From assembly GCF_025996515.1 (NCBI RefSeq), contig NZ_BLRH01000009.1, positions 186,001-250,000 of the forward strand: a stretch of 64,000 bases of DNA. Direction: 5' to 3'. The notes under the pieces were generated by a model. The model ran no database searches, was not told the DNA's origin, and was given only the letters and a program-made list of their open reading frames with translations. The translations under genes and the position numbers were made by a program. Source of the stretch: Rhizohabitans arisaemae. Its GTDB lineage: Bacteria > Actinomycetota > Actinomycetes > Streptosporangiales > Streptosporangiaceae. Positions 2,059-32,265 of this stretch are shown in pieces (position 1 is the stretch's first letter; every line of letters begins with the position of its first letter).

Positions 2059-2505
2059 TCAGGCCTTGGGACCGAGGGAGAGGAGCATGTCGGAGGAGTT
2101 CCGCCGGATGGCCGCGGCGGCGAACGGATCGAGCACGTCACGCAGGACCGGGATACCGATCTCGAAGTCGACTTCGAGGGTGACCGAGGTGATGCCCTCC
2201 CCTTCGTCGAGGACCTGCCAATGACCCGAGAACCGGTCCATATCACCAGCGACCTGCTCGAATGTCACGCGCAACCGGTCGGGCTCGTGACGCTCGCGTT
2301 CCACCCAACGCAGCACGGAACCCTCCAGCTCGACCTCCCAGCCGACCACGGACTCCGTGCTGCCGTCCGCGTGGCCGACGTGGTCGAGGAGCTCGATGAG
2401 CAGCACGCATTCCATCAGCTCGGGATACCGCTTCACATCCAGGATGAGATCCCAGACGGCCAGGGGCGGTGACTTCAGGCGTTCTGTGACCACGATCAGC
2501 GGCAT
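2059..2505 (-). CDS. SRPBCC/START-fold protein (polyketide cyclase-like)
   Basis: A 148-residue protein with the START/Bet v1 pattern: an N-terminal strand and helix (PPLAVWDLILDVKRYPEL), then a run of beta strands and a C-terminal helix (IRRNSSDMLLSL). The length is typical for single-domain SRPBCC proteins, which bind hydrophobic ligands and include aromatases/cyclases and coenzyme Q-binding proteins. No catalytic residue can be assigned. It is the last gene of a short minus-strand pair with the SDR upstream (31-bp gap), so it may act on the same metabolite. It sits at the left edge of the biosynthetic region, and membership of that region is inferred from proximity and shared orientation. 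The ligand is unknown. Confidence 0.75.
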   Translation of the reverse strand: MPLIVVTERLKSPPLAVWDLILDVKRYPELMECVLLIELLDHVGHADGSTESVVGWEVELEGSVLRWVERERHEPDRLRVTFEQVAGDMDRFSGHWQVLDEGEGITSVTLEVDFEIGIPVLRDVLDPFAAAAIRRNSSDMLLSLGPKA

Positions 2506-2536
2506 GTTCTCCCCCGGTTCCCCGTTGTCACGACGC

Positions 2537-3565
2537 TCACCTCGCGGCGGCTTTCCATGGTGTGAGCTCCCGGCACGCCCGGTCGGGGTGGCGATCCGCC
2601 CAGTAGTCCACGCAGCGGTCCAAGCAGTCCTCCAGCGGCTCGACCGGCCAGGTCACCGCGAGTGAGTGGGGAATGGACATGTACGGAACGAACGGCTCAA
2701 GCGTGTCCAGGACCCGCTGCTGGTGGCGGGTCAGGACACGACCCGCCAGCGGGCGGAAGAACCGGTACCACTGTTCGGGAGTGAGCAACCGGGGCCGCTC
2801 CAACGGCTCCGCTCCCCGGCGGGCCCTCCAACGGTCGAGCCGCCGGAGTGTGCGCTCGATCAGTTCCCCCACGGTCATCGCACCGAGGCCGCGACCCTGG
2901 ACGTGCACGGTGGTCGTCGCGGGCCGTCCCGCCGCGGCGACCTCCAGGCAGCAGGACACCACATCCGTGCTGGACACCATCTCCAGCGGCGACTCCTTCT
3001 CGCAGACCAGCGCGGGAAGCGTACCCGAGGTGATGGCGGTGAGCCTGCTGTACAGCCCGGAGAACCGGGCGACGGCACCATCGGACCTACGGCCGACCAC
3101 GAGCGGCGGCCGAATGATCGTCGCGGGGCCGAACCTCCCGCGGACGGTGCGTTCGGCGCCGGCCTTGGACCATTCGTAGGTGTTCCGGTAATCGCCGACC
3201 TCCGGGCTCTCCACGTCGCCGTTGAGGCCGATGGCCCAAGCGGTGGACACGAAGACCAGGTGGGTTCCCGGCCCGAGGAGCTCCGCGAGCGGATCGAGCG
3301 GGGTTACGTTGGCCCGCCACGCCTCGACCGCGGGCAGCGTCCATCGCGTGCTGGCGGCTGCGTGCACAACCACATCCCAGTGGCGCCGGAGCACCGCCGG
3401 GGCAGACTCGTTCATCATGTCCCACGACACCGATCCGGCGCCACCCCTGCGTGAACAACCGACCACGTCCCAGCCCGCCGCACCCGCCCCACGGACGATC
3501 TCGGCGCCCACCACGCCGGTGGCCCCGGTGACCAGCATGCTTCCGGAGTCGCCACCCCGAACCAT
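2537..3565 (-). CDS. Extended SDR / NAD(P)-dependent epimerase-reductase
   Basis: A protein of about 342 residues. The Rossmann nucleotide-binding motif GATGVVGAEI lies close to the N-terminus, and the catalytic YxxxK (YEWSK) is mid-protein, matching extended SDRs (sugar epimerases, thioester-reductase-like domains). The open frame runs up to 3772, but ATG at 3565 is preferred: it has a good ribosome-binding site (GGGAGG about 5 nt upstream), it places the Gly motif near the N-terminus, and the upstream stretch overlaps the divergent NRPS start. The gene is divergent from the NRPS (110-bp intergenic) and followed by the SRPBCC gene. It could reduce or epimerise a cluster intermediate; the substrate is not predictable. 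The extended-SDR family is sure, the role is not. Confidence 0.8.
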   Translation of the reverse strand: MVRGGDSGSMLVTGATGVVGAEIVRGAGAAGWDVVGCSRRGGAGSVSWDMMNESAPAVLRRHWDVVVHAAASTRWTLPAVEAWRANVTPLDPLAELLGPGTHLVFVSTAWAIGLNGDVESPEVGDYRNTYEWSKAGAERTVRGRFGPATIIRPPLVVGRRSDGAVARFSGLYSRLTAITSGTLPALVCEKESPLEMVSSTDVVSCCLEVAAAGRPATTTVHVQGRGLGAMTVGELIERTLRRLDRWRARRGAEPLERPRLLTPEQWYRFFRPLAGRVLTRHQQRVLDTLEPFVPYMSIPHSLAVTWPVEPLEDCLDRCVDYWADRHPDRACRELTPWKAAAR

Positions 3566-3674
3566 TTCGCCTCCCGGAGTTTCAATGTTTTGTACATACG
3601 CGTTTCTTGACATGCTAGAACCGCCGTGACGCAATTGAACACCGCAACGTTGAACAGCAAATCTGGAGCGGTCG

Positions 3675-6600
3675 ATGAATTCCGATCCGATGGCCCCCCT
3701 CTCATATGCACAGGAGGGAATCTGGTTCACGCAGCTCATGAATCCGAACAGTCCGCAGTTCAATATCGTCACGGGTCTGGGGCTGCGGGCCGATCCCGGA
3801 CGCGCGGCCGTGGAGCAGGCACTCCGCGCCGTCGCCGACCGGCACTCGATCCTGAGGACCGTGTTCGGCAGCCCGTGGGACCCTCCTCATCAGCGGATTC
3901 ATCCGTACGAGCGCTTCGATGTGGATCTCGTCGAGGCGGATCTGTCCACCGCCGGTTCACCCAGGGACGCGGCGGCGGAGATCGTGAAGGCCAGTGTGGC
4001 GACGCCCTTCGACGTAAGTGCGGCTCCGCCGTGGCGCGCGCATCTCCTCCATCTCAACAAAGGAGAGCATGTCATCGCGATTGTCGCGCATCATTTGATC
4101 GCCGACGACAGATCAATGGAGATATGGGCGGACGAGCTCGATTCCCTGATTTCGGGAAGAACGCCGGAATCACTGCCGGAGTTGAACATTAAATACGATG
4201 ACTTCGTGTCCTGGCAACGGGAGTGGCTCGACGAGCCTGAACAAGCCGAGCTTTTCCGGTATTGGAGGCACGCGCTTTCCGGTTATCCGTCGTGGTCCGG
4301 GCCGTGCCCCGACCTGCCGAAGGGCGCCGAGCCGAGCAGGGTCGCGCGGAGCTTCCCCGCCGACGTCGAGACCGTCGAACGGGTGCGCGCACGCGCGCAC
4401 GAGGCGGGCACCACGCTGCTGGCGGCCTGGGCGACCGTGGTCGGGGCGGCCGTCGCCCGCCATACCGGTGGCGACCGGGTGCTGCTCGGCTGCGTCACGA
4501 CCGGCCGCACGCTTCCGGAGCTCCAGTCTCTGATCGGGTGTTTCAGCAACATCGTCGTCCTGCCGATCGATCTGGGCGGGGACCCGAACTTCCTCGACGG
4601 CCTGGCCGCGGGAAGGCGGGCGCTGCTCAGCGCCCTGCAGCACGAGGACGTGCCGTTCAGCCGGGTCGTCGAGCTGGTCAACCCACCCAGAGGCGGCGTG
4701 CGCGGACCTATCGCGCAGGTCGGCGTGCAGGTCACGGAGCGGTCGTACCCCCTGCCCGGAGTCCGCGGCGAGGAGGTCGCGGGGGTCGCGGCCGGAACCG
4801 CCGCCGGTCCCTTCGACCTGGAGTTTCAGCTCCGCGCCGATGACGGGAACGCGATCGCGACCGTGCTCTACCGGGCCGACCTCTACTCCCGTGACCTGAT
4901 CGAGGAGCTGGGAGCACAGGCCCTCGGCCTGCTCGACCAGGCGGCCGGGCATCCGGACAGGCCACTCATCCCCGCAAGAGCCGCAGCGCCGTACCGGCCC
5001 GCCGGCGGCGAGCCCTCGACGGTGGACGGACTCATCGCGGCACAGGCCGCACGTACCCCGGACGCGACGGCGGTGCTCTACGACGACCTGCGCCTGAGCT
5101 ATGCCGAGCTCATGACACGGGCATACGCGATCGCCGCCGGGCTGCGGGACGGCGGAGTCACCGCCGGGACCCCCGTCGGCGTTCTCATGGAGCGCTCGAT
5201 CGACCTCGTCCCGGCCGTCCTCGGGGCCCTCGCGGCCGGTGGGGTCTACATCCCGCTCGACCCCGGCTACCCCGCGCCGCGTCTGCGTCAGGCGGTGGAA
5301 CGCGCGGGGTTGAAGGTCGTACTCGGTGACCGGACCACGGCCACGGTGGCCGGGCGGATCGGGGTCCACCTCCTGAAGGCGAACGGGCTCACCGGCCTCG
5401 GGCCTCAGGTGGACGGCCACGACGAACACGACGCGGCGTACGTCATGTTCACCTCCGGATCCACCGGCGTGCCGAAGGGCGTGGTCGTCGAGCACCGCTC
5501 GGCGGTCGCGACCATGCGCGCGATGACCGAGGAGATCGGGCTGGGCGCGGACGACGTGTGGCTGGCCGTCACCCCGATCTCGTTCGACATCTCGGTGCTG
5601 GAGCTGCTGCTCCCGCTGACCGTCGGCGGCACCGTGGTGGTCGCGCCCCGCGAGGCGACCCGCGACGGCGAGCAGCTCTGCGCGCTCGCCCGGCGCAGCG
5701 GCACGACGGTGATCCAGGCCACCCCCGCCACCTGGCGCATGATCCTGGCCGCCGACGATTCGGACGGCCTCAAGGTCAGCGTGCTGTGCGGCGGGGAGGC
5801 GCTCGCCCCGGACCTCGCGGCCCGCTTGCGCGGGTTCGGGCGGGGGCAATGGAATCTCTACGGCCCGACCGAGACGACCATCTGGGCCTCCGCGTGGCGG
5901 CTGCACGAGGCCGACGGGCGGCGGGTGTCGATCGGCAGGCCGCTGGCCGGTGCGGAGTTCCTGATCCTTGACTCGGACCGCACCCCCGTGCCCACCGGCT
6001 CCCTCGGCGAGCTGTACATCGGCGGGCCCTGCGTGGCCAGAGGCTACCTGGACGATCCGGCCACCACCGGCGAGCGTTTCGTGTGGCTCGGCACCGGCCG
6101 CCACTACCGCACCGGAGACCTGGTGCGGCGGCTGCCGGACGGCATGTATGAGTTCGTCGGCCGGAACGACGCACAGGTCAAGGTACGCGGATTCCGGATC
6201 GAGCTACCCGAGGTGGAGACCACTCTGCGGGCTCATCCCCTGGTCGACGACGCGATGTGTACGGTCGTCCGCGACGACAGCGGCGAACACCGGCTCGTGG
6301 CCCACCTGGTGACGGCCGTGACCGAGACCCCCGCGCCGGATGAGTTCCGCCGTTTCCTCGCCGAGCGGCTTCCGCCGTACATGGTGCCGTCGTCGTGGTT
6401 CGTCATCGACGCGGTCCCGCTGACGCCCAACGGCAAGGTCGATCGCGGCGCGCCGGGTACGGCGAGCCGGCGGCTCGGCCCGCCGTCCACGCGACCGGCG
6501 ACGATGTCGGAGGTGGAACGGGAAGTCGCCAGGATCGGGGCGGAGTTGCTCCGGCTCGACGCTCTCGGCGCCGACGAGGACGTGTTCGCGGTCGGCGGGC

Positions 6601-6824
6601 ACTCATTGCTGATCGTGCATCTGCTCGCCCGGCTGCGTGCCCACTTCGGGGTCGCCGTCCCCCTCCGGGCGCTGTTCGATCGGCCCACGGTACGCGAGAT
6701 CGCCCAGACGATCGAAGCGCACCTCACCATGGCACGTGCTTCCGAGGCGCCCAAGCTCGTCCGCCAACCCCGAAGCCGGCCTCCTTCCTCACCGGATCGG
6801 GCGGATCCGGCGACGAGCGGTTGA
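3675..6824 (+). CDS. NRPS module C-A-PCP, predicted to activate glycine
   Basis: 1049 residues. The condensation domain (about 1-430) has active site HHLIADD near 139, with the usual final Gly of HHxxxDG replaced by Asp. The adenylation domain (about 450-930) has A3 FTSGSTGVPKG near 590, YGPTE, and A10 PLTPNGKVDR. The peptidyl carrier (about 940-1025) has the phosphopantetheine site GGHSLL. The specificity pocket read against GrsA numbering is D-I-L-Q-L-G-L-I-W-K, the established glycine code. There is no thioesterase. The ATG at 3675 has GGAGC upstream. The gene is convergent with the acyl ligase-carrier gene and overlaps its 3' end by 36 bases. The likely role is condensing an acyl donor, perhaps the one loaded by the neighbouring ligase-carrier, with glycine. 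The glycine call is strong; the donor is inferred. Confidence 0.93.
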   Translation: MNSDPMAPLSYAQEGIWFTQLMNPNSPQFNIVTGLGLRADPGRAAVEQALRAVADRHSILRTVFGSPWDPPHQRIHPYERFDVDLVEADLSTAGSPRDAAAEIVKASVATPFDVSAAPPWRAHLLHLNKGEHVIAIVAHHLIADDRSMEIWADELDSLISGRTPESLPELNIKYDDFVSWQREWLDEPEQAELFRYWRHALSGYPSWSGPCPDLPKGAEPSRVARSFPADVETVERVRARAHEAGTTLLAAWATVVGAAVARHTGGDRVLLGCVTTGRTLPELQSLIGCFSNIVVLPIDLGGDPNFLDGLAAGRRALLSALQHEDVPFSRVVELVNPPRGGVRGPIAQVGVQVTERSYPLPGVRGEEVAGVAAGTAAGPFDLEFQLRADDGNAIATVLYRADLYSRDLIEELGAQALGLLDQAAGHPDRPLIPARAAAPYRPAGGEPSTVDGLIAAQAARTPDATAVLYDDLRLSYAELMTRAYAIAAGLRDGGVTAGTPVGVLMERSIDLVPAVLGALAAGGVYIPLDPGYPAPRLRQAVERAGLKVVLGDRTTATVAGRIGVHLLKANGLTGLGPQVDGHDEHDAAYVMFTSGSTGVPKGVVVEHRSAVATMRAMTEEIGLGADDVWLAVTPISFDISVLELLLPLTVGGTVVVAPREATRDGEQLCALARRSGTTVIQATPATWRMILAADDSDGLKVSVLCGGEALAPDLAARLRGFGRGQWNLYGPTETTIWASAWRLHEADGRRVSIGRPLAGAEFLILDSDRTPVPTGSLGELYIGGPCVARGYLDDPATTGERFVWLGTGRHYRTGDLVRRLPDGMYEFVGRNDAQVKVRGFRIELPEVETTLRAHPLVDDAMCTVVRDDSGEHRLVAHLVTAVTETPAPDEFRRFLAERLPPYMVPSSWFVIDAVPLTPNGKVDRGAPGTASRRLGPPSTRPATMSEVEREVARIGAELLRLDALGADEDVFAVGGHSLLIVHLLARLRAHFGVAVPLRALFDRPTVREIAQTIEAHLTMARASEAPKLVRQPRSRPPSSPDRADPATSG

Positions 6825-8564
6825 CGGGGTGAAAATCAGGGCCTTGGCGAGCCTGCCGGGGCGGGCGTGTTCCAGGACCGTCGCGATCGGGACGTGGCGG
6901 TCCAGCGCGTCGGAGAGGCGTACCGCGACCTGCGCGGCGAGCAGGGAGTAGGAACCGACCTCCAGCAGATTCTCGTCCGGGTCCACCGTCTCCCGGCCGA
7001 GGGTCTCCGCCCAGGCGGACAGGACCGTCTCCATCACATCGGCGGTGCGAGGCTCCGGTTTCGGGGTCCTGCGCGGTGACGGCCTGAGGGCGATCAGGTC
7101 CTGAAGCGCCGTCTTGCGGATCTTGCCTGTGGGGGTGAGGGGAAGCGCGTCGACGATCGTGATGCGGGAGGGCCGGGCGTGCGCCGGAAGCCGCTCGGCA
7201 CAGTGACGGTACAGCTCGGCGGTGCTCGCCGGGGCCTTGAGGGTGACCACCGCGGCGATCGTTCTGCCGAGCATGGGGTGCGGAACACCGATCGCCGCGG
7301 CCGCCAGCACCGCTGGGCTCTCCGAGAGCACGGCCTCGACTCGGGTGGTGGACACGTTGTGCCCGGCGATCACGACCGTGTCGTCGCGCCGGTCCACAAA
7401 GTAGACGAATCCATCGGCGTCGGCATAACCCAGGTCACCGGTGGCGACCCAGCCGTCGTCCAGGATCCTGGTCGCGCCCTCCCCACCGGGCGGCGACAGG
7501 TGGTGCCGGGGCGGTATCCCGACCGGCCGCAACCAGATCTCACCGGTCTCCCCCACCGGCACCGCGTCGCCCAGGCCGTCCACGATCCTCAGTTCGGTGT
7601 CCTCCCCCGGCCGGCCGATCGACCCGGACCTTCCCGACTCGTGATCGTGGACCAGGGAGACGCCCTCCGTCAGCGTGTACGCGTTGAAGACCTTGGCCCC
7701 CGGAAACGTGACGGCGAGCCGGTCGAACAAGACGGGCGGCAACGGCGCCGAGGAACTCACCACGCACCGGACCGAGGAGAAGTCGTACGGCACGGCATCG
7801 GCGGCGGCCAGCAGCGCCGCGGCCGAGGACGGCACCAGCCCGACCACACGCACCCGGTGCTCCTCGATCAACTCGCAGTGCCTGGCCGGATCGAACCGGG
7901 ACGGGACCACCAGTTTGGGCCCTCGGACACAGTCGTGGACCAGGCCCTGGGTGGCCTCGCCTCCGATGCTCACGGTCATCAGCACGGCGGGTTGCTCCGC
8001 CAGGCCGGAGAGCATGTCCTCCACGGGGTACAGCGCGGCCAGGCCGGCGTGCGACACTGCGACGATCTTGGGCCGTCCGGTTGTGCCGGAGGTCCGCACC
8101 AGGTACGCGAGGTCGTCGGGGTCAACGGCGCCGGCGTCCCCGTCGCCCCCTTCCCCGGCCCGTTCCAGCCCGGCCAGCGTCACCGCGTGACCCGTGAGCC
8201 GCCCGCCGACGTCGACCACCAGATCGGCCGCGGTCTCGTCGAAGGCGGCGGCGAGCTCGTGATCCGGCAGGTCGGCGGAGAGGGGCACCGCGGCGGCCCC
8301 CGCCTTGTAGACGGCGTAGTGCGCGACCACGAAGCCGTCCCACTCCGCGTCGGCCGCGACCAGCGCCACCCGGCTGCCCCGGCCCAGGCCGCGGGCGCGC
8401 AGCGCGGAGGCGGCCAGTCCCGACCTCCGGTCGAGGTCGCCGAAGGTGAGGGTGCCGCCACGGTCGACGACGGTGGCGATCGCGTCAGGCCGGTGGCGGG
8501 CCGCCCGGCGCAGCTGCCGCAGGACGGTGACCTCGAACGATCGGGGCACGGTCATGTCAGGCAC
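6789..8564 (-). CDS. Acyl-AMP ligase fused to carrier protein (A-like-PCP didomain)
   Basis: 591 residues. The ANL-superfamily adenylating domain (about 1-500) has P-loop RTSGTTGRPK and C-terminal PLTPTGKIRK. A carrier domain (about 510-580) follows with GSYSLLAAQ, which keeps the phosphopantetheine serine but not the usual GG(H/D)S context. The A4 region reads VSIGGEATQGL where amino-acid-activating domains have FDxS. The Asp that binds the alpha-amine is therefore missing, and the substrate is probably a carboxylic acid without an alpha-amino group. It is translationally coupled to the LLM gene (ATG at 8564 lies 13 bases inside the 3' end of that gene, which stops at 8552). It may load a starter acid for the C-A-PCP protein. 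The acid cannot be named. Confidence 0.88.
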   Translation of the reverse strand: MPDMTVPRSFEVTVLRQLRRAARHRPDAIATVVDRGGTLTFGDLDRRSGLAASALRARGLGRGSRVALVAADAEWDGFVVAHYAVYKAGAAAVPLSADLPDHELAAAFDETAADLVVDVGGRLTGHAVTLAGLERAGEGGDGDAGAVDPDDLAYLVRTSGTTGRPKIVAVSHAGLAALYPVEDMLSGLAEQPAVLMTVSIGGEATQGLVHDCVRGPKLVVPSRFDPARHCELIEEHRVRVVGLVPSSAAALLAAADAVPYDFSSVRCVVSSSAPLPPVLFDRLAVTFPGAKVFNAYTLTEGVSLVHDHESGRSGSIGRPGEDTELRIVDGLGDAVPVGETGEIWLRPVGIPPRHHLSPPGGEGATRILDDGWVATGDLGYADADGFVYFVDRRDDTVVIAGHNVSTTRVEAVLSESPAVLAAAAIGVPHPMLGRTIAAVVTLKAPASTAELYRHCAERLPAHARPSRITIVDALPLTPTGKIRKTALQDLIALRPSPRRTPKPEPRTADVMETVLSAWAETLGRETVDPDENLLEVGSYSLLAAQVAVRLSDALDRHVPIATVLEHARPGRLAKALIFTPSTARRRIRPIR

Positions 8565-9577
8565 CGCGCCAGCGTGCCCAGCCCGGCCAGGACGTCCGCG
8601 TCTTCGAGACCGAAGTCGACCAGGCAGGCGATCTCATCCACGCCGACGGCGGCGAGTCGCTCCACCAGCTCCCGGCAGCGTGCGGGGGTGCCGATCAGCG
8701 AGTCCGACGCCATGTATCGCCGGGCGGCGAAACCCAGCAGCACGTCCCAGTCGTCCGGGGACAGCTCGCCGGTGGGCACGTCCACCCCGAGCCGCGCGAG
8801 CGAGGCCGCGGAGAGCCCGAACGAGCTGCGGAGATACCCCTTGAGCGGCTCGGTCGCAAGCCGCTCGGCCTCGCCTTCCCCCTCGTGCACGAACGTGTGC
8901 AGCATCAGCGTCACGTGACCGGGTCCCACGCCGGAGGAGCGCGCGCCACGGTAGGCGGCGACGGTGTCCCGCAGCTCGTCGATGCTCTGGCCGAGCAGAT
9001 GGGTAAGCAGGTTGGCACCGGCCTTGCCCGCGGAGACCGCCGTCTCGGCCGAACCCGCCGTGGTGATCCAGGTGGGCAGCTCCCGTTGGATCGGCGGCGG
9101 GAAGACCTTCGGCAGCGACTCCTCGCCCTCCGCGTCCACGAACGCGACGGGCTCCCCACGCCACAGGGCCCGGACGGCTTCGACCCCCTCCCAGAACACC
9201 TGATGCCGCTCCGAGTAGGGCTGCCTGGCAAGCGTGAAATCCCCACGCTGCCAGCCGGAGGCGAACGAGACTCCCACCCGGCCCCCGGACAGATTGTCCA
9301 CGACCGACCATTCCTCGGCCACCCGGATGGGGTGGTGCAGCGGCATCACCACGCTGCCCGCGCGGATGGCCACCCTCCGGGTGCGCACGGCGAGCGCCGC
9401 ACCGAGTACCGAGGGGTTCGGATAGAGCCCGCCGAACCCGTGGAAATGCCGTTCCGGCGTCCATACGGCGGTGAAGTCATTCTCATCGGCGAACCGGGCA
9501 CACGAAAGAAGCAGATCGTAGCCCGCAGCCGCCGAGGTGGAACCGGTCGCGGCAAAGAAGAACAACCCGAATTGCAC
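8552..9577 (-). CDS. MupA/Atu3671-type luciferase-like flavin monooxygenase
   Basis: 341 residues from a GTG at 9577 preceded by AAGGGGG; an in-frame extension to 9745 has no ribosome site and overlaps the dioxygenase region. The sequence starts with the family pattern QFGLFFFA and continues with WTPERHFH, NPSVLGAALA, VVMPLHHPIRVAEEW and GVSFASGW, which are typical of the LLM subgroup found embedded in or beside NRPS/PKS modules. Those enzymes use reduced FMN and O2 and often act on carrier-bound intermediates (alpha- or N-hydroxylation). It lies between the ligase-carrier gene and a PhyH gene in one operon. The substrate is probably the acyl or glycyl unit on one of the carriers (inference). 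Family assignment is strong. Confidence 0.9.
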   Translation of the reverse strand: MQFGLFFFAATGSTSAAAGYDLLLSCARFADENDFTAVWTPERHFHGFGGLYPNPSVLGAALAVRTRRVAIRAGSVVMPLHHPIRVAEEWSVVDNLSGGRVGVSFASGWQRGDFTLARQPYSERHQVFWEGVEAVRALWRGEPVAFVDAEGEESLPKVFPPPIQRELPTWITTAGSAETAVSAGKAGANLLTHLLGQSIDELRDTVAAYRGARSSGVGPGHVTLMLHTFVHEGEGEAERLATEPLKGYLRSSFGLSAASLARLGVDVPTGELSPDDWDVLLGFAARRYMASDSLIGTPARCRELVERLAAVGVDEIACLVDFGLEDADVLAGLGTLARCLT

Positions 9578-9603
9578 GCGTGCCCCCTTGTGAAAGTTAT
9601 TCC

Positions 9604-10365: not shown

Positions 10366-10463
10366 ACCGCCCTCCCCGATTATGCGATCAATTCGGAGTT
10401 TCGCGACGGAACGCAATCCTGCATTATTGTCCCCGGACATTCAAGCCACTGCCCGGGGGTCAC

Positions 10464-11669: not shown

Positions 11670-12418
<749 letters not shown>

Positions 12419-21811: not shown

Positions 21812-21820
21812 GGTCACACC

Positions 21821-23614: not shown

Positions 23615-25083
23615 GGTTCCGCGCCGAAGGCCAGCGCGCCGCGGATCCACTGCTCCACATTGCGCAGGGCGGCCGGCAGCCTGGGGTGGATCCGGTCCAG
23701 ATCGCGCTTGTCCAGTGGCCGGACCAGGCCGAGGTCGACGCTGACCAGGCCGTCGTCGGGCAGCATGTCGAGCTCGTACTCGCGGAAGATGTGCGAGTAG
23801 CTCTGCTTGTACGTGGGCGCGACGGCCAGGTAGGACTCCGGAAGGAGCCGGAAGTGCAGTGGCTTGTACCAGTGGTACGGCGGAGCCTTCGAGTAACGGA
23901 AGCGATCGGCGATCGGCAGGCCGAGGGCGTACCGGATGAACGACGGCTCCAGAAAGGGTGACGCCTCGTAGATCGGCACACCGGCCGGGTGCGCCGCGTA
24001 GGCCAGCGGGTAGATCGAGTCCCACAGCGAGGCCTGGGACCAGGTCTGCCGGTCCGCGGCGAACCGCTCGAACCGGGCCCGCCGCCACCGGCGCGCGGCC
24101 GCCTCCACCACGGGCCGGAACCGATCGGTGACCACGGGACTCGGCAGAGGACGGAGCTGACGACCGAAGGCGAACGCCGCGTAGAGGTCGAAGGACCGCT
24201 CCGGGGGAAGCGCCCGGGCTCCACCGCTGACCACCTCGGCCATGAGCTCGACGACGGTGTCGCCCTTGACGAAGCCCAGCTGGTAACCGCGCAGGTCGCG
24301 CCACCGGCGAGCCGCGACGAGGTCGGGAGTCATGAACTGCCAGGCGGCGAGCACCTCGTCTCCGCCCACGCCGGTCAACAGCACCTCGGCGCCCTCGGCG
24401 GCGACGAGGTCGACCATGGCCCGGTGCAGCCGGGTGTAGTAGTCGATCCGGATACCCGCCGGACTCCAGCCGGGTTCCGGCAACGAACGCCAGTCCACCG
24501 GCATGACCTTCAGCTCGCAGGGCACTTCCATGGCTTTGAGCTGCCGGTGTGCCAGCTGTCCCGTCGGCACGCCGTACTGATCGTCCAGATTCCACACGAT
24601 CGCCAGTAGCCGGCGGCCCTCCGCCCTGCAGATCTCGGCGGCGGTGACCAGGACGCTGGTGGAGTCCAGGCCCCCGGAGTACATCACGGCGACCACGTCG
24701 GCCTCTCCGATGCACGCCTTCACCGCGTCCCGGAAAGCGTCCCGCAGGTCGGACACCGAGGAAGAGCCGGGCCGGTGACCGGAGACCGGCTCCTCCAGCC
24801 GGGAAACCCCCTCCCACGGGCAGGCCGGTGGAAACTCCGCTTCCAGAAACGGGTTCTCCAGATTGATCGCGATCTTCTCCAGGGAAAACCGCGGAGTGCC
24901 GTCGATCAGCGACAGCGGGTCGTTCGCGGTCTCGCCGGTACGGTCGGCGATGAAAACCGGCCTCTGCGCCAGTGGAGTTCGCGCTTGCGCCATATCCCGC
25001 TGCGCCGTGTCCGTCCGTACCGCGCGCGCCTGTATGGGGCGAGGGGAGCCACCGCGGTGGCCCCCCTCGTTGGGAATAGGCAT
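23608..25083 (-). CDS. Asparagine-synthetase-like amide synthetase, PP-loop only (copy 2)
   Basis: 491 residues. It has an intact PP-loop MYSGGLDSTSVLV (near 137), second-site LLTGVGGDEVLAAW, and the synthetase C-terminal helix region SPFLEPSFIRYALGLP with YKPLHFRLLPESYL. The glutaminase domain is missing; the first 90 residues are a truncated, Cys-free remnant. ATG at 25083 follows the candidate precursor peptide stop by only nine bases, with GGGA just ahead, so the two are translationally coupled. This geometry (short peptide then ATP-dependent amide synthetase) resembles lasso peptide operons, but the RRE and transglutaminase-like leader protease of that class are absent. It is probably a macrolactam- or isopeptide-forming enzyme (inference). 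Confidence 0.88.
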   Translation of the reverse strand: MPIPNEGGHRGGSPRPIQARAVRTDTAQRDMAQARTPLAQRPVFIADRTGETANDPLSLIDGTPRFSLEKIAINLENPFLEAEFPPACPWEGVSRLEEPVSGHRPGSSSVSDLRDAFRDAVKACIGEADVVAVMYSGGLDSTSVLVTAAEICRAEGRRLLAIVWNLDDQYGVPTGQLAHRQLKAMEVPCELKVMPVDWRSLPEPGWSPAGIRIDYYTRLHRAMVDLVAAEGAEVLLTGVGGDEVLAAWQFMTPDLVAARRWRDLRGYQLGFVKGDTVVELMAEVVSGGARALPPERSFDLYAAFAFGRQLRPLPSPVVTDRFRPVVEAAARRWRRARFERFAADRQTWSQASLWDSIYPLAYAAHPAGVPIYEASPFLEPSFIRYALGLPIADRFRYSKAPPYHWYKPLHFRLLPESYLAVAPTYKQSYSHIFREYELDMLPDDGLVSVDLGLVRPLDKRDLDRIHPRLPAALRNVEQWIRGALAFGAEPC

Positions 25084-25092: not shown

Positions 25093-25272
25093 TTACCGGC
25101 CTCTACGGAGGGCGATCGACGAGCGAACACTCGCCACGATCTCCGTTACCGCACGCAGATTACGCGTAATCGAGGACTCCTTCTTCGCCGGAGCCGCAGT
25201 GGAAACCAGCAGGTTTCCTCCGCAGCGCCGTGCCCCGCCACAACTGTCGCGGGGGTCATCGGAATGGCTCAT
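25093..25272 (-). CDS. Candidate RiPP precursor peptide, 59 residues
   Basis: The ATG at 25272 is preceded by AAAGGA seven bases upstream and sits about 40 nt from a predicted transcription start. An in-frame extension to 25347 overlaps the promoter and is rejected. The product begins MSHSDDPRDSCGGARRCGG; a Ser/Thr/Ala/Pro linker runs to about residue 28, followed by a basic, helix-prone C-terminal half (about 33-57) with alternating Ile/Val/Leu and Arg. It has two Cys (11 and 17), each followed by Gly-Gly, and Pro at 7 and 28. It is the first gene of the operon with two AS-like synthetases, an S9 peptidase, a GT and a PhyH. Its size, position and composition suggest a precursor substrate with an N-terminal core and C-terminal recognition helix, but no known family is recognised and a plain small protein remains possible. 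Confidence 0.6.
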   Translation of the reverse strand: MSHSDDPRDSCGGARRCGGNLLVSTAAPAKKESSITRNLRAVTEIVASVRSSIALRRGR

Positions 25273-25517: not shown

Positions 25518-26651
25518 TCACCGGGCTAGGTCGCGTCCACGTTCCTGAAGCTCCTTCGCGAAGTCGCGCCAGGTCTCGGCGCAGTACATGGCCAGATCCG
25601 CGACGATGAGCGTGAGATGCGGCGGCACGGCCTCGATCATGTCCGAGCGGCGGTCCTCGGCATGCCCTTGCACGTGCAGCCAGCGAAGCAACTCCCTGCC
25701 CGCGTCCGTGAACCGCAGTGACGGATCCTTCTGCAACGACCGCAGCCGCGCCAGCGCCTTCCGGTCCTCGTTCCGCCGCGCTTCCGCGAGAGCCGCCGCC
25801 TCAAGCCCGAGCACCGCGGGATCGGACCCGTCCTCTCCGCAGCCGTCCGTTCCCAGGCCGTTGACCGGCCGGTTGACTCCGTCGCCGACATGGGCTCCGC
25901 CCCGGCCCTTGAGCGCGACCGGATCCTCTCCCCGGCGCATCCGCTCTCTGACGTCGTGCGCGGTTCCCAGGGACACCTCGGCGTCCTTGGCGATCTCCCT
26001 GAGCGTCGCACCCGGACGGGCGGCTATCACATCGGCGGCGCGGCGCCGGCCGTCCACGGCGCTGAGCGGCCGGCGTCTCCCGTCCTTGCCGAGCCTGCTG
26101 TTCGACTGAGGATCCTCCTCGGTTGAATGCCGGCGTAACCCCGCAACCGTCTTGGCGGACAACCCTGCGGCCTCCGCGATCGCGCGATCGGACATGTGCG
26201 GCTGCGAGCACAGGATGCGCAGGGCGGCCGCCCGCCGATCCGCCAGCGAGAGTGGCATCCCGTGTGCGATGTTGGCCTTCACCGCGAGGATGAAGGCGTC
26301 CTCCTCGCAACCGTCGAAGAACTCGACCTCGATCGAACGATGGCCCCTCAGGATGGCCGCCCGCAGGCGATGCATACCGTCGATGACCTTCAAGGTGGGC
26401 TTGTGGACGAGAATCGGCGGCAACGTGGCGTCGGTCTCGGCGAGCCGCCGGATGTGCGCCTCGTCCTCTCCCGACAGGCGAGGTGAGTCGCCGGGGTGCA
26501 GCAAACCGATCTCGACCCTGCGCGTCTTCTGTGGATACGGCCTCGGGTGCCGATAGCGGTTTGGCCCCGAAGTGTCATGGAGTACGCACGGATCGTCGTC
26601 CGACGAGCCTTTGACGGTTGGCAGCGATTTTAGTTCTGGTTGAACACTCAC
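25518..26651 (-). CDS. StrR/NovG-like ParB-domain transcriptional regulator
   Basis: About 377 residues from GTG at 26651 with GGGGGAGG just upstream. The N-terminal ParB/Sulfiredoxin-like domain shows SPRLSGEDEAHIRRL, LPPILVHKPTLKVIDGMHRL and HRSIEVEFFDGCEEDAFI, followed by helix-turn-helix DRAIAEAAGLSAKTVAGLRR (about 150) and a second HTH-like TLREIAKDAEVSLGTAHDVR. This arrangement is that of pathway-specific activators such as StrR and NovG rather than chromosome-partitioning ParB. It lies directly upstream of the peptide operon and divergent from the GNAT, so it is the likely cluster activator. Family targets are inverted repeats of the GTTCGAC type; no perfect copy was seen by eye. Confidence 0.87.
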   Translation of the reverse strand: MSVQPELKSLPTVKGSSDDDPCVLHDTSGPNRYRHPRPYPQKTRRVEIGLLHPGDSPRLSGEDEAHIRRLAETDATLPPILVHKPTLKVIDGMHRLRAAILRGHRSIEVEFFDGCEEDAFILAVKANIAHGMPLSLADRRAAALRILCSQPHMSDRAIAEAAGLSAKTVAGLRRHSTEEDPQSNSRLGKDGRRRPLSAVDGRRRAADVIAARPGATLREIAKDAEVSLGTAHDVRERMRRGEDPVALKGRGGAHVGDGVNRPVNGLGTDGCGEDGSDPAVLGLEAAALAEARRNEDRKALARLRSLQKDPSLRFTDAGRELLRWLHVQGHAEDRRSDMIEAVPPHLTLIVADLAMYCAETWRDFAKELQERGRDLAR

Positions 26652-26978
26652 CTTTCCTCCCCCGTAGCAGTCAGGAACAGTGAAATGGCCAAGCCCCCCA
26701 CCGTGGCCTCGGCAGACTCGAAACACCGCGCGTAGAACTCGGCGCTGCGCGAGGATCCACCCGCACACCGCTGGAGACGGTTCAACATGCGCGGCGGCCA
26801 CAGCTGCTCGTCACATCATGGGGCGTAGTGATGTGATCGAGATAGACATATAAGAACATTGCCCCGCACCCGAAGATGTCCCTGGATTACGGACATGCCC
26901 TCCCGATTCATTCGAGAGTGGACTGAGTGCTTTCACTCGTGATAGCTCCGTACCGTGCATCGAAGCCGGGAAGAGTCG
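26652..26978. promoter_or_regulatory. Divergent regulatory region between StrR-like gene and GNAT
   Basis: A 327-bp non-coding stretch, AT-rich in its right half. An imperfect inverted repeat (TTCGAGAGTG ... CACTCG) lies near 26910-26940 and could be a regulator site; the match to the StrR consensus is weak. The open frames crossing it are shadows of the GNAT gene. No RNA gene seen. Confidence 0.35.
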
Positions 26979-27512
26979 GTGACCACACCGATCACCAACA
27001 CAGAGATCAGACCGCTGGCCTCGGGTGATATAGAGCAAGTCAGGCTCCTGTGGGGAACCAACGTGCTCGACGATCTGGAGATCCTCTCCTACGACCGCTG
27101 GGGGCCCGGTGTCGCGGTACCCGCGCGGACGGACGTCGCCGAGGTCAAAGTCCAGACCCTGGACCCCAAGGAGGGCATGACCCGCCTGCTCGAACACCTG
27201 CTCACCGCGGAAGACGCGTTCTGCCTGGTGTCCGCGGAGGGCGATGACGTGCACGGATACGTCGTGGCCGGCATCCACGACCAAGGCGTCAACGATTTCC
27301 GATCCGGCCGGATCGACGAGCTCTACGTCCGGGAGGACCGCCGACGCCGCGGCATCGCCACCCGCCTGGTGCGCGCCGCCCTGTCCGAGCTGCGGAACAG
27401 GGACGCCTGGGTCTTCAAGGTCGAGGTGAACAAGACCTGGCAGCACGGAAGGCGGTTCTGGGACGCCCAGCGGTGGGAGCAGGACGCGGTGGTCTACAGG
27501 TTGTACGACTGA
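26979..27512 (+). CDS. GNAT-family N-acetyltransferase
   Basis: 177 residues from GTG at 26979 with GGAAGAG upstream; an earlier GTG at 26955 is possible. The GNAT acetyl-CoA-binding motif A is clear: IDELYVREDRRRRGIATRLVRAAL, with the Arg/Gly-X-X-Gly/Ala turn RRGIA, followed by motif B VFKVEVNKTWQHGRRFWDAQRW. It acetylates an amine, cytosolic. Co-oriented with the PhyH gene 14 bases downstream, so probably co-transcribed. In this setting it could serve tailoring or self-resistance to an amine-containing product. The substrate is unknown. Confidence 0.88.
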   Translation: MTTPITNTEIRPLASGDIEQVRLLWGTNVLDDLEILSYDRWGPGVAVPARTDVAEVKVQTLDPKEGMTRLLEHLLTAEDAFCLVSAEGDDVHGYVVAGIHDQGVNDFRSGRIDELYVREDRRRRGIATRLVRAALSELRNRDAWVFKVEVNKTWQHGRRFWDAQRWEQDAVVYRLYD

Positions 27513-27526
27513 GGGAGGACGAACGG

Positions 27527-28417
27527 GTGGACGACGAGGTTGAACTCGGCGCCGGCGGGGAGACCGTCAGGGCACGACTCAGAGACCACGGCTACTTCGT
27601 CGTACGCGGGCTGCTGCCCGCCGACGCCGTGCACGCCGTACGCCGGGACATATCCGCGGTCTACGGCGCCCACGGGTGGCTGTCTCCGGACGCCGATCCC
27701 AGTGATCTTTTGCCGGACGCGCGCCGCCGGGACGGCGCACCGGGATGGTGGCGATTCGCCGAGGACATTCAGCGTCTGGAGTCCTTCCATCGCCTGGCGC
27801 ACCACCGGGCGCTCGGTTCACTGATGGCCACGATCATCGGCGGCAACGTGCTCAACCATCCCCGGCGCCACCTCACGATCGTCAATCCCGAGTTCTGGGT
27901 GCCGCCGCATCAGGAGTACACCTACATCCAAGGCACCGTGGACTTCTTCACCGCGTTCGTGCCCTTCACCACGCTCACCCCCGGCGCGGGCGCCCTGCGG
28001 ATCCTCCAGGAGGACGACCTGCGCCGGATCAGGCCGCTGCGGATCCTCCCGACCCGTGGTGTGGAGGCTCGCGTCGACGAGACCGAGGGCACCTGGGCGG
28101 AGTTCGCACTGGTGCCCGGCGACGTGGTCGTCATGCACTCACTCGTCACCCGCGGGCTGGCCGAGAACACCGGGCCCGCGATCCAGCTCGCCGCCCAGTA
28201 CCGCTTCCAGTCACGCCGTCTCCCCGTGGTCAAGGCCTCCTTGAAGCCGGAGCACTACCCCCGGCTTCCCGATTGGCCCCAGATCACCAGGGGATGGTCG
28301 TCCCGAAAGTGGATCACGCCGCCGCTGGTCCCCCGGCTGGTGCCGTACACCATGCCGTCGGAGCTGGAGACCTGGCACGAGACCCTGGCCACGCCGGTCT
28401 CGTCGTACCTGGCCTGA
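27527..28417 (+). CDS. PhyH-like dioxygenase (third of three), HxE variant
   Basis: 296 residues from GTG at 27527, with GGGAGG nine bases upstream, right after the GNAT stop. The jelly-roll core is recognisable: DHGYFVVRGLLPADAVHAVR near the N-terminus, metal motif PPHQEYTYIQG (HxE instead of HxD), TPGAGALRIL, and distal His in VVMHSLVTRG. HxE is tolerated in some family members, so activity is plausible but not certain. It ends 6 bases from the convergent MMPL gene. Likely role: hydroxylation of a cluster intermediate; the substrate is unknown. Confidence 0.82.
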   Translation: MDDEVELGAGGETVRARLRDHGYFVVRGLLPADAVHAVRRDISAVYGAHGWLSPDADPSDLLPDARRRDGAPGWWRFAEDIQRLESFHRLAHHRALGSLMATIIGGNVLNHPRRHLTIVNPEFWVPPHQEYTYIQGTVDFFTAFVPFTTLTPGAGALRILQEDDLRRIRPLRILPTRGVEARVDETEGTWAEFALVPGDVVVMHSLVTRGLAENTGPAIQLAAQYRFQSRRLPVVKASLKPEHYPRLPDWPQITRGWSSRKWITPPLVPRLVPYTMPSELETWHETLATPVSSYLA

Positions 28418-28423
28418 ACGTCC

Positions 28424-30682
28424 TCATTCCGTCATCGCGAACCGCTCGTACACGCGGCGCAGCGGCCGGGGAGCCCACCAGTTGGCGTCCCCGGCCAGCC
28501 GCATCACCGCGGGCACGAGCAGGCACCTGACCACCGTCGCGTCAACGACGATCGCGAGGGTGAGCCCGACTCCGATGAGCTTCAGATCGACGATCTCAGA
28601 GGTGGCCAGCCCAACCAGGACCACGCAGATGAGAGCCGCGGCGGCGGTGACGATTCCTCCCGTGCGCTCCAGCCCGAAGGCCACGCTCTCGGTGTTGCGA
28701 CCGGTCTGCGTGTAGCGCTCACGCATCCGCGACAGCATGAACACCTCGTAGTCCATGGACAGGCCGAACGCCATGCAGAAGATCAGCACCAGCACGTTCA
28801 TGTCCAGATACCCGGTCACCTGGAAGCCGCCCAGCAGCTCGCGCAGATGGCCTTCCTGGAACACCCACACCGCGGCACCGAAGGTCGCCATCAGGCTGAG
28901 CAGGTTCAGTATCAGAGCCTTGATCGGGATGAGCAAGCCGCCGGTGAAGAGAAAGAGCAGGACCAGCGTGGTCACGACCAGGATCCCCAGTGCCCAGGGC
29001 AGTCCGCGTGCGATGGCCCGCTCGGTGTCGTGGAGCTGCGCGGACTCGCCACCGACCCAGGCCTTCGCCGTCGGCGGAGGGGCAACGGCACGCAGCGCGC
29101 GTACGGCCTCGCGCCCACGATCGGAGTTGGGGTCCAGCGAGGTGCTCACCGAGAACCACACGGTCTTGTCGGCCGCGTACCGGGCGGCGGCCTCGTCCGG
29201 CTCCCTGGCGGACACGCCGCCCGCGAACCGCCCCGCCACACCGTCGACGCCGGTCACCCCCGGCACCTGGGACAGCCGCGCGGCATATCCCGCCAGCTCC
29301 TGAGCGTGTGCCCCGGGCGACCCGAGGCCGGTCAGCACAACCTCGTACAGCCCGCTGGTGCCGGGGAACCGGGTCCGCATCGCCTCGTGGACCTGGCTCG
29401 ACTGCGCGCTCGCGGGCAACTGCCGGTGGTCCGCCTGCCCGAAGGTGATGTTGAGGAACGGCAGGCCGAGAGCGATCAGCAGCGTCGCGGACGCGATCAA
29501 TGTGACGACCGGCCTGGCCATGATGGACGTGGCCAGCCTGCGCCAGCCCGGAGAGGCGGCGGTGGCGGCCTGGCCGGTCCTCGGCGGCAGCCCGCGCAGG
29601 CGGCGCCAGCCGTTCCGCACGTCCAGCAGCTCGATCCGGCGGCCGAGCAGGGCCAGGATCGCCGGGAGCACGACAAGCGTGACGACGGCGGTGAGCGCGA
29701 CGACCGCGATGCCCGCGTAGGCGAACGAACGCAGGAAGTACTGGGGGAACACCAGCAGTGCCGACAGCGCCAGCGCCACCGTGACCGATGAGAACAGGAC
29801 GGTACGGCCGGCCGTACGCACCGCGACCCGCACCGCGTCCGGCGCCTCGCGCCCGGCCCTCAGCTCTTCACGGTATCGGCGCAGGACGAACAGGCTGTAG
29901 TCGATGGCCAGGCCGAACCCCAGCACGGTGAGCAGGTTGAGCGAGAACACCGACACCGGCGTGAACATCGTGATCACACGCAGCACCAGCAGCGTGGTGA
30001 CGATGGAGAACACGCCCACCACCACCGGCAGCAGTGCCGACACGACACTGCCGAAGATCAGTAGCAGGAGCAGAAAGGTGATCGGCAGGACGATGAGCTC
30101 GGTACGGGTCAGATCCTCACCGGTCTGCTCGTCGATCGCCCGGTCCACCTCGGCCTTTCCGCCCACCCGTACGGCGAAGCCGGGATCCGAGGCGGCCAGC
30201 CTGCCGCTCAGCGCGGACACCCGGTCGGCGACGACCGCAGGGTCCACCGCGCTGACGCCGAGCACGAGTGCCGACCTCCCGTCGGTGCTCCGCAGCCGGG
30301 GGTCCTGGGTGGACCAATACGACATCGCCCCGGCCATGCCTTCGATGCCGGACAGGTCGTCGACCACCGCCTTCCCGACCTCCGCGGCCTCCGGGGTGTC
30401 CACGCCGCCGGGGGTGTCGACAAGCAGCACGAGATTGGGCCTGCCCGCGGGGAACCGGGTCTCCAGCAGATAGTTGGCCTGCGTCGACTCGGCCCCGGGA
30501 TCGACCATCCCTCCGCCGACCAGTTCCTCCCCGACCGTGACGCCGAAGACGCCCGACACGGCGAGCACCAGGCCGGCCAGGGCCAGCACCAGTTTGGACC
30601 GTCTGACCGTCAGCCGGCCCAGACGATCCAGCCATCCCCCGGCTCCCCGCGCGGCCAGAGCCTGATCTCGCACGGCCGTCAT
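28424..30682 (-). CDS. MMPL/RND-family membrane transporter
   Basis: 752 residues. Two repeats of an RND half are present: a first TM near the N-terminus (KLVLALAGLVLAVSGVFGV), a periplasmic domain, then a block of five TMs (about 190-350 and again about 575-740). Conserved MMPL motifs such as GFGLAIDYSLFVLRRYREE and FGLSMDYEVFMLSRMRERY carry the proton-relay Asp-Tyr pair. The family exports lipids or hydrophobic natural products using the proton gradient. Its place between a tailoring oxygenase and a condensation-domain gene supports product export or self-resistance. Start ATG 30682 lacks a strong ribosome site. Confidence 0.93.
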   Translation of the reverse strand: MTAVRDQALAARGAGGWLDRLGRLTVRRSKLVLALAGLVLAVSGVFGVTVGEELVGGGMVDPGAESTQANYLLETRFPAGRPNLVLLVDTPGGVDTPEAAEVGKAVVDDLSGIEGMAGAMSYWSTQDPRLRSTDGRSALVLGVSAVDPAVVADRVSALSGRLAASDPGFAVRVGGKAEVDRAIDEQTGEDLTRTELIVLPITFLLLLLIFGSVVSALLPVVVGVFSIVTTLLVLRVITMFTPVSVFSLNLLTVLGFGLAIDYSLFVLRRYREELRAGREAPDAVRVAVRTAGRTVLFSSVTVALALSALLVFPQYFLRSFAYAGIAVVALTAVVTLVVLPAILALLGRRIELLDVRNGWRRLRGLPPRTGQAATAASPGWRRLATSIMARPVVTLIASATLLIALGLPFLNITFGQADHRQLPASAQSSQVHEAMRTRFPGTSGLYEVVLTGLGSPGAHAQELAGYAARLSQVPGVTGVDGVAGRFAGGVSAREPDEAAARYAADKTVWFSVSTSLDPNSDRGREAVRALRAVAPPPTAKAWVGGESAQLHDTERAIARGLPWALGILVVTTLVLLFLFTGGLLIPIKALILNLLSLMATFGAAVWVFQEGHLRELLGGFQVTGYLDMNVLVLIFCMAFGLSMDYEVFMLSRMRERYTQTGRNTESVAFGLERTGGIVTAAAALICVVLVGLATSEIVDLKLIGVGLTLAIVVDATVVRCLLVPAVMRLAGDANWWAPRPLRRVYERFAMTE

Positions 30683-30822
30683 CGCACGTCACCCGCAAGT
30701 CGGACCACCACTGAGGTCTCCTTAGACATTGGTTGCCCGGCATCTTATAAACGCACTTCTCGCAACCGGTAGGCGTTGACAAACGATGGAAATCACAGCA
30801 AAGCTGAATTACATTCGGCCAG

Positions 30823-32265
30823 ATGTCGGAACCGAACTCCCGTGGCGACGGAATGACGACACCAGAGCCTTCTTCTTATTCGGAGGCATATCCGGAGCTC
30901 AAACGATGGCCGATGTCCTATGCACAGCAGATGCTGTGGTTCCTCGGTAAGCGATGGCGCCACTCCGAAATGCCCAATCGACTCACCGTGTCCATGGTCG
31001 AGACTTTTACTGAGCCCGTCAACGTCGGCGCATTGCGGCTGGCACTTGCGGACCTGATTTCCCGGCACGAGGTGTTGCGATCGGCCGTGGTGGTCGACGA
31101 GGATGACCCTTGTCTCGTGGTGCTCCCCGAAGTCGAGGTGCCGATCGCCTGCCACGACCTGCGCGGCCGTCCCCCGGCGGAGCGGCCGACAGCCGCCGAA
31201 GGGCTGCTGAGCGACGCGTTCCACGCTTCCGTTTCGGCATTCGAAGCGCCGGCGATCAGGTTCACGCTGGTGTCGGTCGCCGACGACCTGCACCACCTCG
31301 CCGTCACCGCCCACCACCTGTTCTTCGACTACTGGTCGGCCCGGCTGCTCAGGCGGGAGCTGCGCGAGGTGTACGCCGCCTTCCTCGCGGGGGAGAAGTC
31401 GCCGCACGCCGCCTCCGAGATCCAGTACGTCGACTTCGCCGTCTGGGAGCGCGAGATGGTTCGCACCCCGGCGATGCGCGACGGCGTCGAGCATTGGAGC
31501 GCCACACTGGCCGACCTGCCCACGCTCGCCCTGCCCACCGACCGCCACCGGCCCTGGCTCCCCACCGGCGAAGCCCGCCGTGCGACGGTGCTCGTCCCGG
31601 CCCGGCTCGCCGGCGACATCAAGATCCTGGCCGAGCGGCACCGGGCTTCTCCCTTCATGGTGCAGGCGGGGGTGTTCCTGTGCCTGCTGTCCAGGCTCAC
31701 CGGACAGGCGGACGTCGGCATCCCGACCCTCTTCTCCGGCAGAACGCACCCGGAGACGTGGAACCTGATGGGCTACTTCGACCGCCTGCTCTTCCTGAGA
31801 CTCCGCTGCGACGAGACGGAGACGGTGTCGGCCATGCTGCGCCGGGTCCGGGAGAACGTGGTGACCGCGTACGAGCACCACGAGGTACCACTGCTCCGGG
31901 TGATCGAGCATCAGCCCCGGCTGCTGTTCCTGCTGGGTAACCCGGTCAATGTCTGGACCCTCTTCCACCTGGAGGTGGACCCCCATCGGCTCCGCCCGGA
32001 GGCCCTGGGCACCCAGGTCCCGGGTGACGCGCCGACGGACTTCGGCGGGGACGGCGAGGACGAGGAGAAGGTCTACTCCTTCGGTGCCGACATCGACGTG
32101 ACGTTGCGGGAGACCGGCAACGGGCTCTACATCCGCGCGCTCTACAACGCGGACCTCTTCGACGGATCCACGATCAGCGGATGGCTGCGGCATTTCCGCA
32201 CCGGCCTCCAGCGTGCCGTCGACAACCCCTCGATCAAGGTTGGCGACCTCTTCCCGATCCCGTGA
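30823..32265 (+). CDS. Free-standing NRPS condensation domain
   Basis: 480 residues, a single C domain with no A or carrier domain. N-terminal C1/C2 motifs are present (WPMSYAQQMLWFLGK, DLISRHEVLRSAVVV), as is the active site AHHLFFDYWS (HHxxxDG with the last Gly replaced by Tyr) and later VGIPTLFSGRTHPETWNLMGYF. Stand-alone C domains join carrier-bound acyl groups to carrier-bound or free amines. It could link the glycyl carrier of the C-A-PCP protein to a free amine acceptor. ATG 30823 follows a TACATT -10-like box by seven bases; MTTPEP at 30853 is an alternative start. It is the last recognisable gene of the main biosynthetic region. Confidence 0.87.
   Translation: MSEPNSRGDGMTTPEPSSYSEAYPELKRWPMSYAQQMLWFLGKRWRHSEMPNRLTVSMVETFTEPVNVGALRLALADLISRHEVLRSAVVVDEDDPCLVVLPEVEVPIACHDLRGRPPAERPTAAEGLLSDAFHASVSAFEAPAIRFTLVSVADDLHHLAVTAHHLFFDYWSARLLRRELREVYAAFLAGEKSPHAASEIQYVDFAVWEREMVRTPAMRDGVEHWSATLADLPTLALPTDRHRPWLPTGEARRATVLVPARLAGDIKILAERHRASPFMVQAGVFLCLLSRLTGQADVGIPTLFSGRTHPETWNLMGYFDRLLFLRLRCDETETVSAMLRRVRENVVTAYEHHEVPLLRVIEHQPRLLFLLGNPVNVWTLFHLEVDPHRLRPEALGTQVPGDAPTDFGGDGEDEEKVYSFGADIDVTLRETGNGLYIRALYNADLFDGSTISGWLRHFRTGLQRAVDNPSIKVGDLFPIP

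Follow-up and report, generated by a model that had tools for sequence, protein, structure and literature searches.

We report a biosynthetic region of Rhizohabitans arisaemae that occupies positions 2059–32265 of a 64,000-nt stretch of its genome (hereafter the window), and that we extend by one further gene, encoding a BpsA_C-family protein, to 33932. Central to this region is a gene for a 59-amino-acid (aa) peptide (25093–25272, minus strand) with an invariant N-terminal core and a basic C-terminal follower. On the same strand lie an asparagine-synthetase (AS)-like protein gene (AS1; 23608–25083, likely start 24993; Pfam Asn_synthase), an S9 peptidase gene (21821–23614; Pfam Peptidase_S9) and a second AS-like gene (AS2; 20438–21817; Pfam Asn_synthase). 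A preliminary description had counted three AS-like proteins: two carry the Pfam domain, and the third (AS3; 15259–16497, plus strand) is a degenerate protein that matches no Pfam or NCBIfam model and is tied to the family by weak similarity (1e-4 to 1e-9) and a long-branched tree position. Pfam and NCBIfam scans (29 window proteins with Pfam) further identified adjacent genes for YcaO (10464–11669, plus; Pfam 3e-78) and TfuA (11666–12418, plus; Pfam), an arginase-family enzyme (14194–15111, minus; Pfam), a Cupin_8 (JmjC-like) oxygenase (13343–14182, minus; Pfam), an ABC exporter (16653–18395, plus; Pfam), a GNAT acetyltransferase (26955–27512, plus; Pfam), a PhyH oxygenase (PhyH3; 27530–28417, plus; Pfam) and an acyl ligase fused to a carrier protein (A-PCP; 6789–8564, minus; Pfam AMP-binding and PP-binding).

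We searched 345 genomes of the order with AS1 (match threshold E 0.001) and obtained matches in 33; seven genomes, including that of R. arisaemae, matched at 1.6e-126 or better. The other six are five Nonomuraea-type genomes (among them Nonomuraea indica, N. sp. SYSU D8015, N. endophytica and N. roseoviolacea subsp. carminata) and Actinomadura madurae (G191, G198, G206, G212, G219 and G281, of which G206 belongs to the Nonomuraea genus group), and 40 kb around each AS1 match was compared with the window. All seven clusters share the peptide, AS1, the S9 peptidase, AS2, AS3, the cupin, TfuA, YcaO, the arginase, an ABC exporter, PhyH3, GNAT, A-PCP and, at the cluster edge, BpsA_C (32307–33932, plus; Pfam). 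The ABC gene occupies the same place throughout, and its orthology is uncertain because identity to the relatives' proteins is only 30–34%. The SGGxDS loop of AS1, the Ser, Asp and His motifs of the S9 peptidase and the HKE and SMGALRAAE stretches of TfuA are kept in all seven; the AS2 loop is kept in six and is degenerate in A. madurae. In each of the six relatives a third tandem AS gene follows AS2, with 27–33% identity to the AS2 of the window, and the ATP loop is lost both in this gene and in the AS3 of the window. A second PhyH oxygenase (PhyH2; 18408–19250, minus; Pfam), a GT4 glycosyltransferase (19266–20435, minus; Pfam) and a regulator (25518–26600, ORF open to 26801, minus; 55–57% identity) occur in five of the six and are missing from G281. 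The regulator had been described as StrR-like, a kinship that is unconfirmed, as Pfam gives helix-turn-helix families only.

The gene set listed in the preliminary description is real. Besides YcaO, TfuA, the S9 peptidase, GT4 and A-PCP, it includes a condensation–adenylation–carrier protein (C-A-PCP; 3675–6824, plus; Pfam Condensation, AMP-binding and PP-binding), a stand-alone condensation (C) domain (30823–32265, plus; Pfam Condensation), several oxygenases (three PhyH, with PhyH1 at 9604–10440, minus, Pfam; one Cupin_8) and two exporters, the ABC protein and an MMPL protein (28424–30682, minus; Pfam). The proposed loading of glycine by C-A-PCP agrees with the code D-I-L-Q-L-G-L-I-W-K, read by eye at the GrsA positions. 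The list lacked the arginase, GNAT, a MupA/Atu3671-type luciferase-like flavin mononucleotide (FMN)-dependent monooxygenase (8552–9580, ORF open to 9745, minus; NCBIfam TIGR04020 above cut-off), a GINT1_N-type protein (12420–13337, plus; Pfam) and BpsA_C, which lies past its end. Two edge genes are of unsure membership and encode a polyketide-cyclase-like protein (2059–2505, minus; Pfam) and an NAD-binding reductase of the short-chain dehydrogenase/reductase (SDR) type (2537–3547, minus; Pfam). Just before them, at 41–1945, lies a protein that resembles geosmin synthase by its layout, with two Terpene_syn_C_2 stretches. Further downstream, adjacent genes for tRNA-Val and tRNA-Gly lie at 40404–40557 and a third tRNA gene at 45700–45772; the G+C content falls from about 0.70 to 0.64–0.68 over 44000–64000, and the final 2 kb reach only 0.53. 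This part of the window is perhaps an integrated element.

The genes of nonribosomal peptide synthetase (NRPS) type are of two kinds. A-PCP is present in all seven clusters, and the seven proteins form one clade (96/96; support is given as paired values) that excludes both the C-A-PCP of the window and ten further ligases encoded in these genomes, with some non-cluster ligases scoring almost as well as the cluster A-PCPs by BLAST. On the other hand, orthologues of C-A-PCP, the stand-alone C domain, the monooxygenase, PhyH1, GINT1, MMPL, the SDR and the cyclase-like protein were absent from the six relatives' 40-kb regions. Since C-A-PCP, the C domain and the luciferase-like gene lack orthologues in all six of these regions, we regard the NRPS set of the window as a variable layer on a conserved core of ribosomally synthesized and post-translationally modified peptide (RiPP) genes. 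The preliminary description would count a single pathway as refuted by homologous genomes in which the NRPS half and the peptide/AS half occur independently and are never adjacent. The six regions go half of the way to that outcome: the peptide and AS half occurs there without the C-type NRPS genes, but with A-PCP. The window-only genes are interleaved with conserved ones: A-PCP is flanked by C-A-PCP and the monooxygenase, TfuA and the cupin enclose GINT1, and the C domain lies next to PhyH3 on one side and BpsA_C on the other. A GINT1 relative was found in one of 342 genomes besides the own one (G264), outside any such cluster. Common to the six relatives instead are genes for a GMC oxidoreductase, a class III aminotransferase, a C-like protein, a free-standing carrier, an acyl-CoA-dehydrogenase-like protein and a protein of 310 aa that fits no family firmly; a PIG-L deacetylase occurs in five (families defined by BLAST, one or two members of each being scanned with Pfam). 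A single pathway joining the RiPP set with NRPS-type parts, as had been suggested, is supported by the A-PCP clade and by this interleaving; the earlier interpretation as a whole is supported in part.

Homologues of the peptide stand beside AS1 in all six relatives (48–63% identity over 52 aa). Among ten pairs of the five Nonomuraea-type copies, 8–22 codons differ synonymously and 1–5 nonsynonymously, and no nonsynonymous change falls within residues 1–23. The peptide is therefore coding and under purifying selection. Its invariant, reactive N-terminus and basic C-terminus have the layout of a precursor with a follower, an arrangement known from bottromycin in passages of PMC4979651. The core of the window peptide contains Cys-Gly-Gly stretches. 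The preliminary description did not recognize the type of this peptide, and the evidence points to a precursor of the triculamin type of lasso peptide. A profile built on AS1 retrieved remote homologues from three of 394 genomes of a class sample at 1e-20 (own genome included), from six of 394 of family f20 at 1e-30 and from two of 300 of family f39. We fetched all eight distant loci besides the own one, and in each a peptide of the form M-S-x-K-S-x-P-G-D-G lies upstream of the AS gene. When three of these peptides were scanned, one passed the NCBIfam cut-off for the lariocidin/triculamin core (31 versus 27 bits) and two matched below it. At one locus (L095), two triculamin-like precursor genes (8690–8845 and 12257–12415) flank a single AS gene and a gene for a 287-aa GNAT protein. 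In a tree that has flagged long branches and includes no characterised cyclase, AS1 groups with six of the distant-locus cyclases at moderate support (90/84), with AS2 outside.

These observations bear on the chemistry as follows. All 16 peptides compared (seven from this cluster type) have Gly or Ser at residue 2, Pro at residue 7 and Asp at residue 9, the Asp being partly imposed by the patterns with which they were collected; for comparison, 19 of 246 other predicted proteins have Asp there. The ring of lariocidin links Ser1 to Asp8 (passages of PMC11451635), and the AS-like McjC forms ring bonds to Asp or Glu at positions 7–9 (passages of PMC4979651). On the basis of the shared Gly/Ser2 and Asp9, the probable kinship of AS1 and these two precedents, we propose a leaderless lasso-type ring. 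Neither a RiPP recognition element (RRE; B1) family nor a transglutaminase-like leader peptidase (B2) family was found by Pfam among the 29 window proteins, as expected if the peptide is leaderless.

Several points weigh against this proposal, beginning with the partly imposed Asp just mentioned. AS1 reaches the curated cut-off of no cyclase model (1e-14 for the NCBIfam macrolactam cyclase), its tree grouping falls under the strong-support mark of the tool, and its AlphaFold model has a mean predicted local distance difference test (pLDDT) score of 49.6. The peptides of the window and of A. madurae match none of the NCBIfam lariocidin/triculamin models (NF050021/22/31), even at E 10. Leaderlessness is read from start codons alone, with the B1/B2 scan covering the window proteins, and lariocidin itself is described with B1/B2 leader processing and a clostripain-type peptidase (passages of PMC11451635). 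The C-type NRPS genes are unconserved. The intergenic regions yielded no operator common to both halves: neither a StrR box nor exact dyads nor shared 20-mers clearly exceeded chance. Finally, the joint change in arginase and precursor described below is a single event.

The tailoring enzymes add an unusual load. The nearest solved structure to YcaO is MJ1094, a methanogen YcaO that forms thioamides. Among solved structures, the arginase is nearest to proclavaminate amidinohydrolase; its metal motifs are kept in six clusters and lost in A. madurae, where Arg8 and Arg16 of the precursor (Met numbering) are replaced by Lys and Gly, respectively, and the AS2 loop is degenerate too. The coincidence of these three changes suggests that the arginase would make an ornithine whose amine matters. 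Cupin_8-type enzymes usually carry HxD, and the protein here reads HYH in all seven clusters. The A-PCP pocket lacks the Asp typical of amino-acid activation and its carrier Ser is present; in C-A-PCP the A code and the carrier Ser are kept, and the two C domains read HHLIADD and HHLFFDY rather than HHxxxDG (by eye). In five relatives, GT, PIG-L, the GMC oxidase and the class III aminotransferase occur together. The aminotransferase is nearest to the gentamicin C-6' aminotransferase, and the GMC protein is nearest to fructose/glucose dehydrogenases, with a weaker match to 6'''-hydroxyparomomycin C oxidase. Together the four genes resemble a diamino-sugar module. For the window the case for such a sugar is weaker, since GT4 alone of the four genes is present there; A. 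madurae has the GMC and aminotransferase genes and neither GT4 nor PIG-L.

BpsA_C is not specific to the cluster: it has a match in 14 of 17 chosen genomes, including seven of ten without the cluster. In three of the latter (L075, L076 and L077, near 9–11 kb) it is flanked by gltB-like and lgt-like genes (by eye), a position that suggests a housekeeping role in cluster-free genomes. The seven cluster copies group together (89/91). A second copy in the R. arisaemae genome (L082; G000:C8, start 791723, end 793207) is in two pieces and groups with a copy from G025 rather than with the cluster copies. The same genome has two further YcaO-TfuA loci, G000:C8:1250958–1251614 (L020) and G000:C28:520509–520997 (L021), with no AS genes in the 20 kb around them. 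Likewise, the first-found YcaO-TfuA relatives, taken with these two pairs (L012–L023), lack such an AS gene, some of the contigs being only 3–12 kb long. The virus contigs held no relative of the S9 peptidase.

We hold with evenly balanced confidence that the region encodes one RiPP pathway of the triculamin kind, that is, a leaderless lasso peptide with an unusual tailoring load. What the sequences establish is the gene content and how far it is conserved, that the peptide is coding, which motifs are retained and how the enzymes are related; from these we infer the following chemistry, the order of its steps and the threaded topology. AS1 would join the amine of residue 1 to Asp8, giving a lasso-type macrolactam ring, and the S9 peptidase would probably remove the conserved C-terminal follower. 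YcaO-TfuA may introduce one or more backbone thioamides, most likely at the Cys-Gly-Gly stretches, and the arginase may convert a core Arg (residue 7 once Met is removed) to ornithine, whose amine AS2 may use for a second amide bond. The PhyH and cupin enzymes would hydroxylate and GT4 would attach a sugar. A-PCP would build an acyl group, or an acyl-glycyl one, destined for a product amine; in the window, the C-A-PCP with predicted glycine specificity, the free C domain and the monooxygenase would assist it. GNAT, the exporters and the cluster copy of BpsA_C are candidates for self-protection, the last possibly for tailoring instead. A bolder extension seems rather unlikely to us in full: a family of thioamidated, acylated lasso peptides, those of the relatives bearing a diamino sugar, that would combine ribosomal, nonribosomal and aminoglycoside-type chemistry on a lariocidin-like ribosome-binding scaffold, with protection by the cluster's own copy of a housekeeping BpsA_C enzyme, which would act on the RNA target.

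A different reading of the AS genes, which we find somewhat unlikely, is that the product is a thioamidated RiPP of a new non-lasso class, in which the AS-like proteins would form amides at side chains, or couple a small amine or the carrier-bound acyl group, and no N-terminal macrolactam arises. It would account for the failure of the peptide to match the lasso core models, and for the number of AS genes, two whose loops are intact and a third that is degenerate, which is more than a single ring needs; AS-like enzymes also make asparagine and other amides, and an AS-like hit to TIGR01536 was obtained. What speaks for a ring instead is that AS1 is probably akin to the cyclases found at triculamin-type loci, and that the peptides agree in the place of the Asp and in the layout of the follower. 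The NRPS genes invite the quite improbable view that two adjacent pathways are present, a conserved RiPP cluster and an NRPS/monooxygenase set inserted in this strain. The absence of orthologues of C-A-PCP, the C domain, the monooxygenase, PhyH1, GINT1 and MMPL from the relatives' regions, and the lack of a promoter motif shared above chance, would fit such an insertion, but the window-only genes are interleaved with conserved A-PCP, TfuA/cupin and PhyH3/BpsA_C, and the relatives' clusters hold C-like, free carrier and acyl-CoA-dehydrogenase-like genes of their own.

The substrate of the arginase is a separate matter. The enzyme could act on a carrier-bound guanidino acid, as in guanidinobutyryl-type starter units, rather than on the peptide. 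Its nearest solved relatives are small-molecule amidinohydrolases, the acyl ligase-carrier is conserved, and A. madurae has an extra Orn/Arg-type decarboxylase gene beside A-PCP. We nevertheless think this unlikely, as the loss of the motifs coincides with replacement of core Arg residues in A. madurae, albeit in one event. Spergualin, bleomycin, mycothiol and clavulanate were weighed as product types and dropped, as was saskemycin, a glycolipid according to passages of PMC12637814.

If the triculamin-kind pathway is correct, the product, a lasso-like ribosomal peptide bearing sulfur, hydroxyl and sugar groups as well as nonribosomal ones, would represent a new type of hybrid natural product, and would show how NRPS parts come to be used for tailoring a ribosomal peptide. 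A leaderless system would allow AS-like cyclases to be studied without leader-processing proteins, and the seven clusters, spread across three genera, are sources for making the products. No description of this gene combination was found by title, abstract start or passages of the literature searched, though the clusters may already be tabulated in supplementary material. No described YcaO-TfuA lasso peptide was found in the same literature. A 2026 review of interlocked peptides mentions glycosylated lasso peptides and does not mention thioamides, YcaO, ornithine, NRPS or aminoglycosides.

The clavulanate pathway has a trio of AS-like ligase, oxygenase and amidinohydrolase, and the region resembles it in having iron oxygenases, an AS-like ligase and an enzyme of the arginase family whose nearest solved structure is proclavaminate amidinohydrolase; it differs in its ribosomal precursor, and no carboxyethylarginine synthase was found among the window proteins scanned. 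Sugar genes of the gentamicin/neomycin type resemble the relatives' aminotransferase and GMC genes, and the GT4 and PIG-L genes of five relatives, whereas the window has GT4 only and A. madurae has neither GT4 nor PIG-L. With thioamidated RiPPs the region shares adjacent YcaO and TfuA genes and a short precursor gene, but its AS-like trio, arginase and precursor are foreign to them. The YcaO-TfuA classes listed in passages of PMC13174530 (thioamitides, thiovarsolins, thioamidated thiopeptides, chimeric lanthipeptides and std) include no lasso peptide. S9 and PhyH genes adjoin other YcaO-TfuA pairs (passages of PMC8120280) and thiovarsolin-type clusters adjoin NRPS or polyketide synthase (PKS) genes (passages of the RiPPER study, PMC6511847); the main texts of these two papers do not mention asparagine. 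The triculamin/lariocidin systems differ by lacking the Cys-Gly-Gly core, YcaO-TfuA, arginase, oxygenases, GT4 and NRPS parts found here, where the peptide matches none of their models, and lariocidin has B1/B2 and a clostripain-type peptidase in place of the S9 peptidase. In common with them, the region has a probably kindred AS-like proposed cyclase, a short basic precursor whose core begins with Gly or Ser and carries Pro6 and Asp8, and a GNAT protein, which in lariocidin is hypothesised to confer self-resistance (passages of PMC11451635).

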